DNA of 64,000 bases from Arthrobacter globiformis NBRC 12137 (GTDB lineage: Bacteria > Actinomycetota > Actinomycetes > Actinomycetales > Micrococcaceae). Where the stretch lies: NCBI RefSeq assembly GCF_000238915.1, contig NZ_BAEG01000073.1:1-64000 (forward strand). The letters are read 5' to 3'. Below, piece after piece: positions 46,258-51,984 of this stretch (the first letter of the stretch is position 1; the number at the start of each line of letters is the position of its first letter). The notes below the pieces were generated by a model. That model had not been told where the DNA came from. It saw nothing but the letters and a program-made list of their open reading frames with translations, and searched no databases. Both the position numbers and the translations under genes were made by a program.

Positions 46258-46391
46258 CCTGGCTGCCCTGTATCAGCACCGGCCTTCGGGCAGCAGCGGA
46301 CGCCGTCATCCAGCGGTGAGATTTGCCACCAACGGTGGCCGCCGCCGTCGGGCGTTGCTATGGTAATTTCCAAGGTCCCTTTCCCGGACCT

Positions 46392-46432
46392 CCGGACGAC
46401 GGTTCAGTACCCGGTGCGCGACAAGACTGGCC
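46392..46432 (+). promoter_or_regulatory. Guanidine-III (ykkC-III) riboswitch
   Basis: CCGGACGA (46392-46399), GTACCCGGT and GACAAGAC lie in the order and spacing of the ykkC-III consensus. CAGT/ACTG can close the helix that forms the pseudoknot, and the CCGG elements form the other. The ribosome site AAAGGA at 46433-46438 follows directly, before the ATG at 46445. The class binds guanidinium and commonly precedes emrE/sugE-type genes in actinobacteria, as here. Confidence 0.85.
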
Positions 46433-46444
46433 AAAGGATCTGTC

Positions 46445-46768
46445 ATGTCGTGGTTTATCCTCATTCTTTCTGGCGCCCTCGAGGCGGTGTGGGCGGCAGC
46501 GCTGCACCGGGTGTCCCAGTCTTCCGGCCGGCGGCGGGTCGCCGCAGGGGCCCTCTTCCTCGTCGCGGTGCTGGCCAGCACCGCAGGCCTCGGCATCGCG
46601 ATGCAGTCCATTCCCACCGGCACCGCCTACGCGGTGTGGGTCGGCGTGGGTGTGGTGCTGACCTCCGCCTACGCGATCGTGGCCAAAGTTGAACGGCCGA
46701 CGGCGGCACGGCTGCTGCTGCTCGCCGGTATCGCCGCATGCGTGGTTGGCCTCAAGGCGGTGGCGTAA
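46445..46768 (+). CDS. SMR-family guanidinium exporter subunit, Gdx-like
   Basis: Small multidrug-resistance protein of 107 residues and four helices. SWFILILSGALEAVWAAAL contains the central membrane Glu; GTAYAVWVGVGVVLT is the Gdx/SugE subtype signature rather than the Qac type. It sits directly behind a guanidine-III riboswitch and overlaps the next SMR gene by one base (TAATG). Paired SMR genes usually form heteromeric exporters, as with YkkCD. Role: proton-coupled export of guanidinium. Confidence 0.87.
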   Translation: MSWFILILSGALEAVWAAALHRVSQSSGRRRVAAGALFLVAVLASTAGLGIAMQSIPTGTAYAVWVGVGVVLTSAYAIVAKVERPTAARLLLLAGIAACVVGLKAVA

Positions 46769-47139
46769 TGCTCGCGAAGCCTGCCACCGCCTGGATCATC
46801 CTGCTCTCCTCCGCCGTCCTGGAAGCCGTCTGGGCCACTGCCCTGGGCCTGTCCGACGGCCTGACCCGGCCACTTCCTACCGTTGTTTTCGTGGTGACTG
46901 CCGCGCTCAGCATGCAGGGCCTGGGCATGGCGGTGAAGCACATCCCGCTCGGCACCGCCTACGCCGTCTGGGTGGGGATTGGCGCGGCACTGACGGTCGG
47001 CTGGGCCATGGCCACCGGCGTCGAGCCCTTCAGCCTCCTCAAGGTGCTGTTCATTGCGGGGATCGTCGGATGCGCGGCGGGGCTGAAGATGCTGCCTGCG
47101 GCCCCCGCCCGTCGGCGCGGGGCTGATCCGGCTCCCTAG
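46768..47139 (+). CDS. SMR-family guanidinium exporter subunit, Gdx-like
   Basis: Second SMR protein, 123 residues. AWIILLSSAVLEAVWATAL carries the transport Glu, and GTAYAVWVGIGAALTVGWAM is the Gdx signature. It differs from its partner by a short cationic C-terminal tail (APARRRGADPAP), which may set its orientation in the membrane. ATG at 46768 overlaps the upstream stop. With its partner it probably forms an oriented heterodimer. Confidence 0.87.
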   Translation: MLAKPATAWIILLSSAVLEAVWATALGLSDGLTRPLPTVVFVVTAALSMQGLGMAVKHIPLGTAYAVWVGIGAALTVGWAMATGVEPFSLLKVLFIAGIVGCAAGLKMLPAAPARRRGADPAP

Positions 47140-47865: not shown

Positions 47866-47932
47866 CAGGTCTTAGCGGCCGCGGTGCGTGGGCCTAAGCT
47901 CCACCACCGGCTAGGCGTTAGCGGCCGCGGCG
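47850..47932. repeat. Imperfect direct repeat copying the helicase 3' end
   Basis: Segments 47850-47886 and 47896-47932 are alike at 31 of 37 positions, 46 bp apart. Each contains TTAGCGGCCGCGG, which in the second copy is the stop codon and last codons of the helicase gene. The first copy lies beyond the stop and overlaps the right arm of the hairpin. Confidence 0.7.
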
Positions 47933-49786
47933 CTCGTTCGACGCCGGGGCCGACGCGCGGCGCGGGGCCTTCCGGGCGGGACGGCCGTCACCGGAGCGGC
48001 CGCTGCCGCCCGCGGAGGAACCGCCTGCGTAGGAGCCGCCGGACGTGCCGCCGGTGGTGGAGGACCAGACCGCTGCGTTGCCGCCGCCGGTCTTGCCGGC
48101 TGCTGCCCGCTGGCCCGTGGCCGGACGCCCGCTCCGCTGACCACCGGTGCTCGGGCGGCCGGTGCCGCCACGGGGAGCTTCGCTGCGGGTGAAGCGGGAA
48201 TCGCCCCGACCCTCCGCTGCACGCCCGTCCGAACCGCGGCCAGCGGCCGCGCGGCCACCGGCTGCTGGGACGTCGTTGCGGTGCGTGCTGGCCGCAGTGC
48301 CGCGGCCACGGGCATTGCGGCGAGCTGCCGCTGCCGCAGTGGCGCGGTCCTCGTTCTGCTCAGCGACGCGCTCTACAGCATCCCGGGCAGCTGCGCGGCC
48401 ACCGTAGGCCGCAGCACGGCGTTCAGCGCGGGGCAGATCCGTGCGGGGAGCCTCGGCGGCAACCCGCCCGCGGCCCCCGCGCCCGCCCCGGCCGCCGGCG
48501 GTGGGTGACGCCTGGCGGCGTGCACGCTTGCGCTCGGCGTTGGCGCCGGTAGAGGTGCCGCCGCCCTGGTTGGCCTTGGCGGCGAGCAGCGCGGCGCGGG
48601 TCCGGGGGTCCACCTTGTCGGCGATCTCGCCCACCAGATCGGCAACGATCGGCGAGCTGGCGGTGACTCGCTCGAAGCTGACGTCGACGCCCGCAGCCTT
48701 CATGAGCTTCCTGACGTCCGTCTGCTGCTCGGGCAGGGTCAGCGTGACCACGGTGCCGTCGGAGCCGGCACGGGCGGTGCGGCCGGAGCGGTGCAGGTAC
48801 GCCTTGTGCTCGGTGGGCGGGTCGACGTGGATGACCAGTTCGACGTCGTCAACATGCACACCGCGGGCGGCGACGTCGGTAGCCACCAGGACGCGGACCT
48901 CACCGGAGGAGAACTCGGCGAGGTTGCGGTCGCGGGCGTTCTGCGACAGGTTGCCGTGCAGGTCGACGGCGGGAATCCCGGCGTCGGTCAGGGTCTTGGC
49001 CAGCTTGCGGGCGTGGTGCTTGGTCCGCATGAACAGCACGCGGCGGCCGGCGCCGGAGGCCAGTTCAACGATCAGCTGCTTCTTGACGGTCTGGTCGTTG
49101 ACTACCAGCACGTGGTGCTCCATGGTGGTCACCGCGGCCTGCGGATCGTCCACGGAGTGGGTCAGCGGGTTGGACAGGTAGCGCTGGACGATCTTGTCCA
49201 CGCCGTTGTCCAGGGTGGCGGAGAACAGGAGACGCTGGCCCTGGCTGGGGGTCATGTCCATGAGCTTCTTGACCACGGGCAGGAAGCCGAGGTCGGCCAT
49301 GTGGTCGGCCTCGTCCAGCACCGTCACCTCGACGGCCTCGAGGGTCAGGATGCGCTGGCGGATCAGGTCCTCCAGCCGGCCCGGGCAGGCGATGACGATG
49401 TCGACGCCGGCGCGCAGCGCCTTCTCCTGGCGCGCCTGGGAGATGCCACCGTAGATCACGGTGGTGTTCAGCCCCATGGCCTTGGCCAGCGGCTCGATCG
49501 TGGCGTTGATCTGGGTGGCCAGTTCACGGGTGGGCGCAAGGACCAAGCCCATGGGGCGGCCGGGCTTGCGGAAGTAGGCGGCTTCGCGCTCGGCGAGGCG
49601 GGCTACAAGGGGGATGGCGAAGGCAATGGTTTTACCGGAGCCGGTGCGGCCGCGGCCCAGGACGTCGCGGCCGGCCAGGGTGTCCGGCAGGGTCTTGACC
49701 TGGATGGGGAACGGGGATTCGATGCCCTGGGCGGCCAGGGTTTCGGAGAGTGCCTTGGGCGTGCCGAGGGCAGCAAAAGTAGTCAT
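47918..49786 (-). CDS. DEAD-box RNA helicase with Arg/Gly/Ala-rich tail
   Basis: RNA helicase of 622 residues. Q motif (PFPIQVKTLP), motif I GRGRTGSGKT (about 44-53), PTREL, DEAD at 158-161 (VLDEADHM), SAT at 189-191, then VATDVAARGVHVDD and HRSGRTARAGSDG of the second RecA domain. From about 400 a 220-residue low-complexity tail rich in Arg, Gly and Ala follows, typical of RNA-binding extensions in actinobacterial RhlE/DeaD proteins. Family roles are ribosome assembly, mRNA decay and cold adaptation. The 5' leader contains a probable attenuator. Confidence 0.93.
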   Translation of the reverse strand: MTTFAALGTPKALSETLAAQGIESPFPIQVKTLPDTLAGRDVLGRGRTGSGKTIAFAIPLVARLAEREAAYFRKPGRPMGLVLAPTRELATQINATIEPLAKAMGLNTTVIYGGISQARQEKALRAGVDIVIACPGRLEDLIRQRILTLEAVEVTVLDEADHMADLGFLPVVKKLMDMTPSQGQRLLFSATLDNGVDKIVQRYLSNPLTHSVDDPQAAVTTMEHHVLVVNDQTVKKQLIVELASGAGRRVLFMRTKHHARKLAKTLTDAGIPAVDLHGNLSQNARDRNLAEFSSGEVRVLVATDVAARGVHVDDVELVIHVDPPTEHKAYLHRSGRTARAGSDGTVVTLTLPEQQTDVRKLMKAAGVDVSFERVTASSPIVADLVGEIADKVDPRTRAALLAAKANQGGGTSTGANAERKRARRQASPTAGGRGGRGGRGRVAAEAPRTDLPRAERRAAAYGGRAAARDAVERVAEQNEDRATAAAAARRNARGRGTAASTHRNDVPAAGGRAAAGRGSDGRAAEGRGDSRFTRSEAPRGGTGRPSTGGQRSGRPATGQRAAAGKTGGGNAAVWSSTTGGTSGGSYAGGSSAGGSGRSGDGRPARKAPRRASAPASNERRGR

Positions 49787-49952
49787 ATGCGTTTATCAGG
49801 GTCTTTCAGGCGGTATCCAGCGGATATCGGCCCCCGACGCCGGTTGGCTCAGGGGGTCGCCGAAGAAATGTCAGGTGGTCAACCGGGCTGCTGCCAGTGT
49901 TCAAACAGCGGCCGCCGGGACCAATAGCGTTCATCGACGCAGGATGTGCCTC

Positions 49953-49994
49953 TCACATGAAAAAAGCCCACCAGAGGCGGGCATCACTGCACAT
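49953..49994 (-). CDS. 13-residue leader peptide with tandem Trp codons
   Basis: ATG to TGA reading MCSDARLWWAFFM. The two TGG codons (49968-49973) fall in the right arm of an intrinsic terminator and the Phe codons are its T-tract. A TAGACT -10 box lies at 50006-50011, so the transcript would begin a few bases before the ATG. The downstream gene is the DEAD-box helicase, 166 bp away. Stalling at Trp codons, or any ribosome occupying them, would block the terminator hairpin. Not recognised from memory as a named leader. Confidence 0.6.
   Translation of the reverse strand: MCSDARLWWAFFM
49960..49982 (-). terminator. Attenuator terminator in the helicase leader
   Basis: GCCCGCC-TCT-GGTGGGC (one G-U pair) followed by six T on the minus strand. 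It lies upstream of the helicase start and downstream of a TAGACT box, with no other gene it could terminate, which is the layout of a transcription attenuator. Confidence 0.75.
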
Positions 49995-50493
49995 CAAGTC
50001 CCACCAGTCTACCATCAGCGCCCGTCAGGCCCGTTCCGGCCCCCTTTCCGGCCCGCTTCGGGGACAATTTCGAGCCGCTTGTGGCTTCGGTCGAGTCGGC
50101 AGGCCGGAGCTGTTCACCCCTTCGCAGTACCGCCCCAAGATGCGTGATGCAGCTCACGGACAACAATGGACGACATTTGGGACTGGCATGCTGGACATAT
50201 GTCGAAGACTATTGCGGCGTTTCGCACCAACCGCGAATTTCCCGCCGGCGGGCACTATTCCCGGCTGGACTGCGGGAATGCGCTTTTCCGGCCGGGGCGC
50301 TCCGCCCGATGCGCGGGCACCCGGCCTTCCCGCCACCAGGCGGAGTGGCCGGCAGGCACGCACTTGGCGCATTCTGCCGCTCATAGTCTTAACACCATCC
50401 AAATTGTTAGTTCCGTCACATCTGGGCGGACCAACGCGGCCGGCACGGCAACCTCCCGCACGTGCCGGCACCTGTGACAAGGAAGAAGACTTG
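49995..50493. other. Divergent region before cycA, no gene
   Basis: Gene-free 499 bp. The minus-strand TAGACT box at 50006-50011 serves the helicase leader. GTGATGCAGCTCAC at 50144-50157 is a perfect CRP/GlxR-type dyad (GTGA-N6-TCAC) that may control the permease. The remainder has no coding potential I trust. Confidence 0.5.
50144..50157. promoter_or_regulatory. CRP/GlxR-like site
   Basis: GTGA-TGCAGC-TCAC, matching the core of TGTGA-N6-TCACA sites of the CRP family, 337 bp upstream of the cycA-type gene. Distance is long, so the assignment is tentative. Confidence 0.35.
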
Positions 50494-51984
50494 ATGTCTG
50501 AGCGCACCACCAGCATTTCCGTTCAACCCTCCACAGAACGTGCTGACCCTGGCCAGAGCAGGGAACCGCACCTCGCCCGCGGACTTGGCAACCGCCACAT
50601 CCAGCTTTTGGCCATCGGCGGCGCCATCGGCACCGGCCTGTTCATGGGCTCCGGCAAGACCATCTCCCTTGCCGGCCCGTCCGTCATCTTCGTGTACATG
50701 ATCATCGGCTTCATGCTGTTCTTCGTCATGCGCGCCATGGGCGAGATCCTGCTCTCCAACCTGAACTACAAGTCCTTCAGCGACTTCGCCGGCGACATCC
50801 TTGGCCCCTGGGCAGGCTTCTTCACCGGCTGGTCCTACTGGTTCTTCTGGGTGGTGACGGGTGTGGCCGACATCGTGGCCATCGCCGGTTACGTGGACAA
50901 GCTCGCTCCGGGCACGCCCCTGTGGATCCCGGCATTGATCACTCCCGTGGTCCTCATCCTGCTTAACCTCCCCACGGTCAAGGCCTTCGGCGAAGCGGAA
51001 TTCTGGTTCGCCATCATCAAGGTGGTGGCTATCCTCGCCCTGATCGCCACCGGCGTCGTCATGATCGCCACCAACTTCACCTCGCCGAGCGGTGCGGTGG
51101 CCAACCTTGCGAACATGTGGAACGACGGCGGCATGTTCCCGCACGGCATGTTCGGCTTCATCCTCGGTTTCCAGATCGCCATCTTCGCCTTCGCCGGCAT
51201 CGAACTCGTGGGCACGGCGGCTGCCGAAACCAAGGACCCGGAGAAGAACCTCCCGCGGGCGATCAACTCGATCCCGATCCGCGTCCTGCTCTTCTACGTG
51301 GGCGCCCTGGTGGTCATCATGGCCGTCAACCCGTGGCGCAGCATCGACCCCGCCAGCAGCCCGTTCATCGGCATGTTCACCCTCGCCGGCCTGGGGATCG
51401 CCGCCATCGTGATCAACCTGGTGGTCCTGACCTCGGCCGCCTCCAGCGCCAACTCAGGCATCTACTCCACCTCGCGCATGGTCTATGGCCTCGCGCAGGA
51501 CGGCAACGCCCCGAAGGCCTTCGGCAAGCTGAGCTCCCGCAAGGTTCCGCAGAACGCGCTCCTGTTCTCCTGCATCTTCCTGCTGGCCGGCCTGGTCCTG
51601 CTGTACGCGGGCGACTCCGTGATCGGCGCCTTCACCATCGTCACCTCCGTGGCATCGGTGCTGACCATGTTCGTCTGGTCGATGATCCTCATCAGCTACA
51701 TCGTGTTCCGCCGCCGCCGGCCGGAACTGCACGAGGCGTCCGCGTTCAAGATGCCGGGTTCGGCCTTCATGCCCCACGTGGTCCTGGCCTTCTTCGTGTT
51801 CATGCTGGTGGCGCTGGCCCAGGCCGAGGACACCCGCCTCGCGCTGGTGGTTGCCCCTGTGTGGTTCCTGCTGCTGGGTGCCGCCTGGTACTTCAACCGC
51901 CAGACGCCGCTGCAGCAGGCCCGGATCGAGGAGTGGAAGGCCGAAGGCTCCAGCGTCTCCGCTGCCGCCGGGGCAAACTCCTAA
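50494..51984 (+). CDS. cycA: D-serine/D-alanine/glycine:proton symporter
   Basis: APC-family amino acid permease of 496 residues, 12 helices. NRHIQLLAIGGAIGTGLFMG, SGKTISLAGPSVIFVYMIIG and VGTAAAETKDPEKNLPRAIN match E. coli CycA almost residue for residue in several stretches, as does SAASSANSGIYSTSRM. It should import glycine, D-alanine and D-serine with protons across the cytoplasmic membrane. ATG at 50494 follows AAGGAAGAAGACTTG. Monocistronic, with a strong terminator after it. Confidence 0.9.
   Translation: MSERTTSISVQPSTERADPGQSREPHLARGLGNRHIQLLAIGGAIGTGLFMGSGKTISLAGPSVIFVYMIIGFMLFFVMRAMGEILLSNLNYKSFSDFAGDILGPWAGFFTGWSYWFFWVVTGVADIVAIAGYVDKLAPGTPLWIPALITPVVLILLNLPTVKAFGEAEFWFAIIKVVAILALIATGVVMIATNFTSPSGAVANLANMWNDGGMFPHGMFGFILGFQIAIFAFAGIELVGTAAAETKDPEKNLPRAINSIPIRVLLFYVGALVVIMAVNPWRSIDPASSPFIGMFTLAGLGIAAIVINLVVLTSAASSANSGIYSTSRMVYGLAQDGNAPKAFGKLSSRKVPQNALLFSCIFLLAGLVLLYAGDSVIGAFTIVTSVASVLTMFVWSMILISYIVFRRRRPELHEASAFKMPGSAFMPHVVLAFFVFMLVALAQAEDTRLALVVAPVWFLLLGAAWYFNRQTPLQQARIEEWKAEGSSVSAAAGANS

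Follow-up and report, generated by a model that had tools for sequence, protein, structure and literature searches.

A terminator-like hairpin in the conserved leader of an actinobacterial DEAD-box helicase gene

We analysed a stretch of 64,000 nucleotides from Arthrobacter globiformis NBRC 12137 (contig NZ_BAEG01000073.1, positions 1 to 64,000; henceforth the window, meaning this whole stretch), in which a gene for a DEAD-box RNA helicase on the minus strand is preceded by a GC-rich hairpin that runs into a U tract. Comparison with related genomes indicates that this hairpin/U-tract architecture is maintained across the genus, and the sequence supports the presence of a terminator-type attenuator in the helicase leader. 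Specifically, we propose, with about even confidence, that the helicase gene has a structured 5' untranslated leader with the hairpin as its first module, a leader in which an intrinsic terminator would act as an early attenuator and read-through would be regulated in a way tied to cold or to helicase supply. We place the leader among structured cis-regulatory leaders, and its interest lies in its wide conservation before one helicase. Leaders of cold-shock helicases matter in other phyla; a leader that is tied to a single helicase from Arthrobacter to Mycobacterium, and that carries near-invariant blocks, is a target for studying how a helicase gene gauges the need for helicase.

Conservation of the terminator-like module in the genus

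The locus is as the initial annotation of this DNA had described it: a TAGACT box, an ATG...TGA open reading frame (ORF) encoding MCSDARLWWAFFM, and a GC hairpin followed by T6 precede a DEAD-box helicase gene, the helicase ATG at 49786 lying 166 bp after the TGA of the ORF. All of these elements were confirmed on the minus strand by the sequence and, for the helicase, by Pfam. Read along that strand, the order is TAGACT (50011-50006), GGTGGG, ACTTG and ATGTGCAGTGATGCCCGCCTCTGGTGGGCTTTTTTCATGTGA (49994-49953), with the transcription start predicted at ~50000 (-) by its spacing from the -10 box. An intrinsic-terminator-like element thus stands between the putative promoter and the gene. Because the nearest upstream gene, a permease-like ORF starting at ~50494, is divergent and lies on the plus strand, the hairpin does not mark the 3' end of a different gene on the minus strand.

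Judged alone, the site in the window is unremarkable, and its weight must come from comparison: positions 49700-50500 contain 1 terminator-like site against a shuffle mean of 0.5, and the fold z-scores of the site were -1.14 (51 nt) and -1.72 (64 nt). Under a stricter rule (a perfect stem of at least 6 pairs with at least 5 G-C, a loop of 3-8, and a T at 6 or more of the 7 positions that follow), the hairpin with its T6 was the sole such site on both strands of the 64 kb, with 0 found in each of 3 mononucleotide shuffles.

For the comparison, relatives of the helicase were found by protein in 80 named loci and in 150 genomes of the genus (150/150 with a match). Upstream DNA covered 129 loci, i.e., 19 named loci (>90% helicase identity) and 110 of the 150 genus genomes, window included; 119 of these 129 were distinct over the last 260 nt, and we refer to these Arthrobacter-type sequences as distinct genus leaders. 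All 119 have in common ACTTGATG, the hairpin, a U-rich tract and CATG(T/C)GA...GCACNTCC. In every one of them the hairpin abuts the U-rich tract (gap of 0 nt in 112 and of 1 nt in 7), meaning that the terminator-like, attenuator-like hairpin which the initial annotation had pointed out in a single helicase leader is kept genus-wide. The tract reads TTTTTT in 80 leaders, ATTTTT in 16, TTTCTT in 13, TTTATT and CTTTTT in 3 each, TATTTT in 2, and CTTCTT and CTTATT in 1 each.

The insert from the ATG to the end of the tract measures 35-117 nt across the genus, and its middle is hypervariable. Predicted hairpin energies range from -10.1 to -47.9 kcal/mol (median -21.9), with the window at -11.8 among the weakest. 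When the same hairpins were compared with their dinucleotide shuffles, the median z was -3.1, z was below -2 in 112/119 leaders, and 74/119 beat all 60 shuffles; the closing stem extended to both ends in 96/119 leaders vs 1027/7140 shuffles. A genus-wide hairpin and U tract whose sequence drifts is the pattern expected of selection for both, despite the 20 tracts that are interrupted.

The wider leader outside the genus

The hairpin is part of a longer conserved leader that also precedes the related helicase of Microbacteriaceae, Rhodococcus and Mycobacterium, where the leader has neither the MCSDARLWWAFFM ORF nor this U tract. A pattern requiring CGTCG and GGCG was used to collect the leaders, and 98/110 loci satisfied it. 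Many of the non-genus leaders contain, in this order, a -10 box with ACTTG, a stem (P1), a (C/T)TGCGTCG(A/T)(A/T)GAACGC-like block, a variable part, a TTTCTT(A/C)CGGCGAAC-like block, a hairpin (P4) and a Shine-Dalgarno (SD)-like GAAAG. TANNNT followed by ACTTG was found in 27/54 block-bearing leaders outside the genus, and GA(A/G)AG in 106/110 loci when the interval from 45 nt before to 20 nt after the start codon was scanned.

In the Arthrobacter genus the terminator module sits inside P1, between GATGTGC and GCACATC. At the P1 position, different genera carry arms that are unrelated yet self-complementary (e.g., GGTGACC/GGTCACC, GAATCCA/TGGATTC or GCGAGTGCG/TGTGCTCGC). A stem of at least 5 pairs was found near the expected place in 47/54 non-genus loci, of which 21/54 beat shuffles at ≤0.05; given that single loci mostly fail the shuffles, the argument for P1 rests on the differing complementary arms among genera.

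Two further pairings were considered in alignment A1, which comprises 42 of 49 non-redundant leaders (L032, L041, L042, L045, L081, L089 and L108 were left out because of length or coordinates). For P4, both partners had changed in 26 cells, 25 of which belong to the inner helix; the shuffle mean was 9.7, and 0/500 shuffles reached 26. The count was taken over the 28 A1 rows outside Micrococcaceae (helicase identity ~70% or less), with shuffles that ignore relatedness. Sliding the P4 partners lowered the compensatory count, and a subset of 26 rows (without L058 and L062) gave the same conclusion. The other pairing, a suggested helix P2 between CGTCG and CGGCG, would tie up a strand that P4 also needs. 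In A1, CGTCG with the following GA is invariant in 42/42 rows, the block being also a selection criterion, and CGGCG is invariant in 42/42, GGCG being also a selection criterion. If formed, P2 would hold an invariant U-G wobble (A1 columns 6 and 120, window positions 49937 and 49860; 42/42 leaders, both blocks being selection criteria). The idea that P2 and P4 form a temperature switch was set aside, as pair probabilities were patternless and the automatic P4 coordinates doubtful.

Six Cryobacterium-type leaders (L042, L043, L045, L049, L050 and L052, not L040, L041 or L044) carry five consecutive T downstream of a GC-rich region, at another point of the leader (~136-148 nt before the helicase), which may perhaps be an independent gain of a terminator-like site.

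Association with one helicase gene

To follow the leader more widely, a covariance model of P2-P4 (R1) was run with strict filters on 296 genomes of the class and, with filters relaxed, on 39 genomes of the order. In the class, 28/296 genomes matched at E ≤0.01, with one match each. As many as 25 of these 28 matches lay directly before the related helicase, on the same strand and with 65-100% helicase identity, three of the 25 coming from the genus, window included. The remaining matches (L223, L225 and L226; E 0.0025, 0.0032 and 0.0055) had no helicase, were among the four weakest, and are probably chance matches. In the order, 13/39 genomes matched at E 0.1. Seven of the order matches had E ≤2.5e-4, comprising 4 already known and 3 new ones, and all 3 new ones stood before the helicase; five weaker ones were fetched (L230-L234) and had no helicase adjoining. 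Looser limits gave weak extra R1 matches, two of them in genome G242 (E 0.016 and 0.028). In the 268/296 class genomes and 26/39 order genomes without an R1 match, the leader is either missing or too divergent for R1. Across these searches, the wider leader appears as an element associated with one helicase gene, directly upstream of it and one per genome.

The leader has no Rfam 15 match in the window (nothing at E ≤10 for 49700-50040) or in the 14 relatives scanned, which gave only a tRNA; nor did we find a description of it as a family in the open-licence full-text literature. Within the genome, the 3' piece of the leader has no second copy, and the 5' piece has one match with 3 mismatches, equal to a reversed control. 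Mimicry of, or pairing with, 23S rRNA (i.e., the leader as a helicase decoy) was also considered and rejected, as local alignments with the own 23S locus, sense and antisense, fell within shuffles (last 230 nt of nine leaders, 18 comparisons; lowest shuffle counts 3, 6 and 6 of 100).

Proposed mechanism and alternatives

In the mechanism we propose, RNA polymerase would start at ~50000 (-) and reach the GC hairpin and U tract after ~40 nt, where part of the transcripts would be released; read-through would yield P1, the CGUCG...CGGCG blocks, the downstream hairpin and the helicase. Since the polymerase makes the hairpin before anything else, no upstream RNA appears to be left for a classical antiterminator, and such a mechanism needs a trans factor or polymerase kinetics. 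Regulation would thus come from a trans factor rather than from a translating ribosome, with the helicase itself or a cold-shock protein as candidates for opening the nascent hairpin, and with the kinetics of the polymerase at low temperature as an alternative to a protein opener. Termination in the cell, regulated read-through and a regulator tied to cold or to the helicase are what we infer from the arrangement of the leader. A broader proposal, which is tentative and on balance improbable, is that a family of cis-regulatory RNAs in several actinobacterial families senses RNA-unwinding capacity or cold, and that Arthrobacter gained a terminator inside the first stem, to be melted by the helicase or by a cold-shock protein.

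Published systems offer partial parallels. In Mycobacterium tuberculosis, a conserved 56-nt region termed RNA8 is listed between Rv3210c and Rv3211 (rhlE) in the same orientation as rhlE; it has 83 reads and an RPKM (reads per kilobase per million mapped reads) of 6917 (PMC3388012, Table 6); the aligned region of M. smegmatis has 6 reads and an RPKM of 25 in the same source (PMC3388012). Like the Arthrobacter leader, with which we match it by position, RNA8 is a conserved non-coding region before rhlE and on its strand, but it is reported there as a candidate small RNA (sRNA), with 'N' for EvoFold and no Northern (PMC3388012). Given its place and strand in that table, RNA8 is, in our reading, probably a piece of the same leader family. 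It need not be a terminated product, because short RNAs of M. tuberculosis are described as mostly bound to paused polymerase, in a species with few canonical intrinsic terminators (PMC10937400). In Caulobacter crescentus, cspA is described as attenuated at optimal temperature and induced in the cold, which is the mode we propose for the Arthrobacter leader, although cspA is another gene in another phylum and the Arthrobacter mode is a proposal (PMC5472812). In favour of the proposed mechanism, the same paper reports that the 186-nt leader of Caulobacter rhlE is required for full expression and that expression is higher in an rhlE null. The Caulobacter gene has a long 5' untranslated region before a DEAD-box helicase described as cold-induced; this leader likewise comes from another phylum, and the available part of the paper describes neither a terminator or attenuation nor cold-induced transcription for rhlE (PMC5472812).

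Several observations weigh against early attenuation tied to cold or helicase supply. A classical cis antiterminator appears to have no space ahead of a hairpin that comes first in the transcript, and the model has to invoke a trans factor. In 20/119 leaders other bases break up the U tract, which should make termination weaker in those leaders. In the 27 readable non-genus leaders, the interval from ACTTG to the CGTCG block contains no T5 run, and attenuation there therefore cannot be the ancestral function. P2 is without covariation support, its core being invariant and its variable pairs not beating shuffles, and folding at 10, 30 and 37 °C showed no consistent P2/P4 switch, with pair probabilities that varied by species without pattern. 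In wild-type Caulobacter, transcription of rhlE is reported not to be induced at 10 °C (PMC5472812). Finally, the link to cold is borrowed from another genus via presumed orthology. The M. smegmatis gene at the counterpart of RNA8 is, judging by position and gene numbering, probably MSMEG_1930. In favour of the link, this presumed orthologue is reported as 5.01-fold up at H2 of cold; against it, a second M. smegmatis helicase, MSMEG_1540, was induced more (9.71-fold at H2 of cold; PMC10454040). In addition, a promoter-bound repressor, CrsL, is reported to act on MSMEG_1930 (PMC12709188).

Alternatively, the leader may act post-transcriptionally, on translation or mRNA stability, in which case the hairpin and U tract would be a structural or protein-binding insert in P1 and not a terminator. 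The wider family, which has the leader without this U tract, points in this direction; so do P4 and an SD-proximal GCC..GAAAGGC hairpin (30/48 loci with helicase identity of 60-79%), which suggest a platform near the start codon, and so does the Caulobacter rhlE leader, which its authors are reported to think affects the mRNA level (PMC5472812). We consider this explanation doubtful, in that a terminator accounts more readily than structure alone for a GC hairpin flush with a U-rich tract in 119/119 leaders.

Another explanation is that the terminator yields a short, stable, trans-acting RNA (~41 nt here) with the near-invariant ACUUGAUGUGCAGUGAUG as its seed, and that the helicase is expressed by read-through. 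A near-invariant 5' segment followed by a hairpin and a U tract is indeed sRNA-like, and in M. tuberculosis a distinct RNA ahead of rhlE, RNA8 with its RPKM of 6917, has been predicted (PMC3388012). However, the 5' segment is partly accounted for by its pairing with GCACATC in the same leader, there is no second genomic copy save the one match with 3 mismatches, and RNA8 was not among the four Northern-tested candidates while its M. smegmatis counterpart had few reads (PMC3388012), which together make an sRNA unlikely.

Translation of the leader

In Trp-type attenuators, the gene under control has a leader with a terminator hairpin that overlaps a short ORF, and the leader in the window also has a terminator-like hairpin overlapped by a short ORF. 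The initial annotation had proposed that a ribosome slowed on the two Trp (WW) codons of this ORF, as in Trp-type or antibiotic-type leader peptides, blocks the hairpin and allows the polymerase to enter the helicase gene. Since Trp codons in the G-rich arm of a hairpin can arise by chance, a Trp-sensor reading needs comparison. An alignment of related helicase leaders, which the annotation had itself called for, separates the two parts of that proposal: the hairpin is conserved (119/119) and the WW codons are not (3/119), the very outcome that it had named as speaking against the peptide. TGGTGG, in the hairpin arm of an ATG...TGA frame, is truly present in the window, in L091 and in L093, all three of which have the shortest insert. 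The one other leader of that length (35 nt), L134, encodes MCSDAHF and then reaches a stop codon ahead of the site where the Trp codons would lie.

Nor does the remainder of the frame behave like a leader peptide. Across the genus its length varies from 7 to 79 codons and its end may lie upstream of, within or past the hairpin, meaning that no conserved short ORF with a translation start signal was found in the 119 leaders. With transcription starting where the promoter predicts, ~5 nt of RNA would precede the AUG, too few for an SD site, and none is present. The start of the ORF, searched as ATGYGCRGTGA in the last 330 nt, occurred in 0/61 helicase leaders outside the genus. What does favour translation is that 117/119 distinct leaders begin ATG TGC (A/G)GT GA(T/C) GCC, the first five codons being near-constant (ATGTGCAGTGATGCC in 106, ATGTGCGGTGACGCC in 9 and single forms in 4). 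Past these five residues, however, no peptide is conserved in the 119 leaders, i.e., a conserved arrest peptide for antibiotic-type stalling was not found, and a peptide-altering Ser to Gly change is tolerated in 10/119.

The near-constant start may instead reflect an RNA structure. A 3-bp hairpin, GC(A/G)-GUGA-(U/C)GC, is the sole structure overlapping the 5' arm of the terminator, and the one candidate for a competing antiterminator. It takes the form GCAGUGAUGC in 106 leaders, GCGGUGACGC in 9 and a G-U form in 1, and is broken in 3 (L180, L182 and L190, of which L180 and L182 also carry the poorest U tracts). Nine of the leaders with the Ser to Gly change still keep it. At this hairpin (window positions 49981-49990, minus strand) there is one double compensatory change, found in 9/119 leaders. 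Its conservation, with few independent events, is a lead and not proof that the 5' segment acts as RNA.

Compared with Trp-type attenuators, the leader in the window thus lacks conserved regulatory codons and a ribosome-binding site and appears to lack room for an antiterminator, and the gene that it would control is a DEAD-box helicase, not one for biosynthesis or other metabolism of the sensed amino acid. A ribosome-stalling type of leader, uORFC-6-1, is reported ahead of hflX, called an RNA helicase in that source, but the Arthrobacter leader has no conserved peptide to match it (PMC8632094). We conclude that the WW codons are, as far as the alignment can tell, a by-product of the G-rich 3' arm of the GC stem and not a Trp sensor, and judge that the MCSDARLWWAFFM ORF is probably not a functional leader peptide. 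Control of the helicase by a Trp leader peptide was therefore rejected as highly improbable, its codons being kept in so few of the 119 leaders and the hairpin in all.

Features of the locus

The coordinates of the leader and of the gene are collected in Table 1. Pairing of the P1 3' arm with CATGTG (49954-49959) would exclude its pairing with the 5' arm at 49989-49995.

Table 1 Predicted and observed features of the helicase leader and gene in the window.
Feature	Coordinates	Strand	Basis
-10 promoter element TAGACT (predicted)	50006..50011	-	sequence; TANNNT box in 119/119 distinct genus leaders, TAGACT in 79/119
ACTTG at predicted RNA 5' end	49995..49999	-	119/119 distinct genus leaders
ORF of the initial annotation, MCSDARLWWAFFM; ATG at 49994, TGA ending at 49953	49953..49994	-	sequence
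P1 stem, 5' arm GATGTGC	49989..49995	-	complementary to 49943-49949; 64-nt fold
Terminator-like hairpin, stem GCCCGCC-TCT-GGTGGGC, 7 pairs, loop TCT	49966..49982	-	fold and terminator scans
U6 tract	49960..49965	-	U-rich counterpart in 119/119 distinct genus leaders
CATGTG, alternative candidate partner of P1 3' arm; local hairpin ATGTG-AGAGG-CACAT	49954..49959	-	sequence
P1 stem, 3' arm GCACATC	49943..49949	-	fold and genus comparison
Conserved block CGTCGATGAAC, possible P2 5' strand	49929..49939	-	complementary to 49857-49868
Conserved block TTTCTTCGGCGA, possible P2 3' strand	49857..49868	-	aligned leaders
Downstream hairpin CCCCC...GGGGG, place of P4 in other genera	49831..49856	-	sequence, by eye
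SD-like GAAAGAC	49801..49807	-	sequence
DEAD-box RNA helicase, 622 aa, gene under the leader	47918..49786	-	Pfam DEAD 3.1e-41, Helicase_C 8.3e-27

Elsewhere in the window, a guanidine-III riboswitch was detected at 46370-46435 on the plus strand (54.9 bits, gathering threshold 36), just before two ORFs (46445-46768 and 46738-47139) that, by eye, resemble small multidrug-resistance-type transporters.
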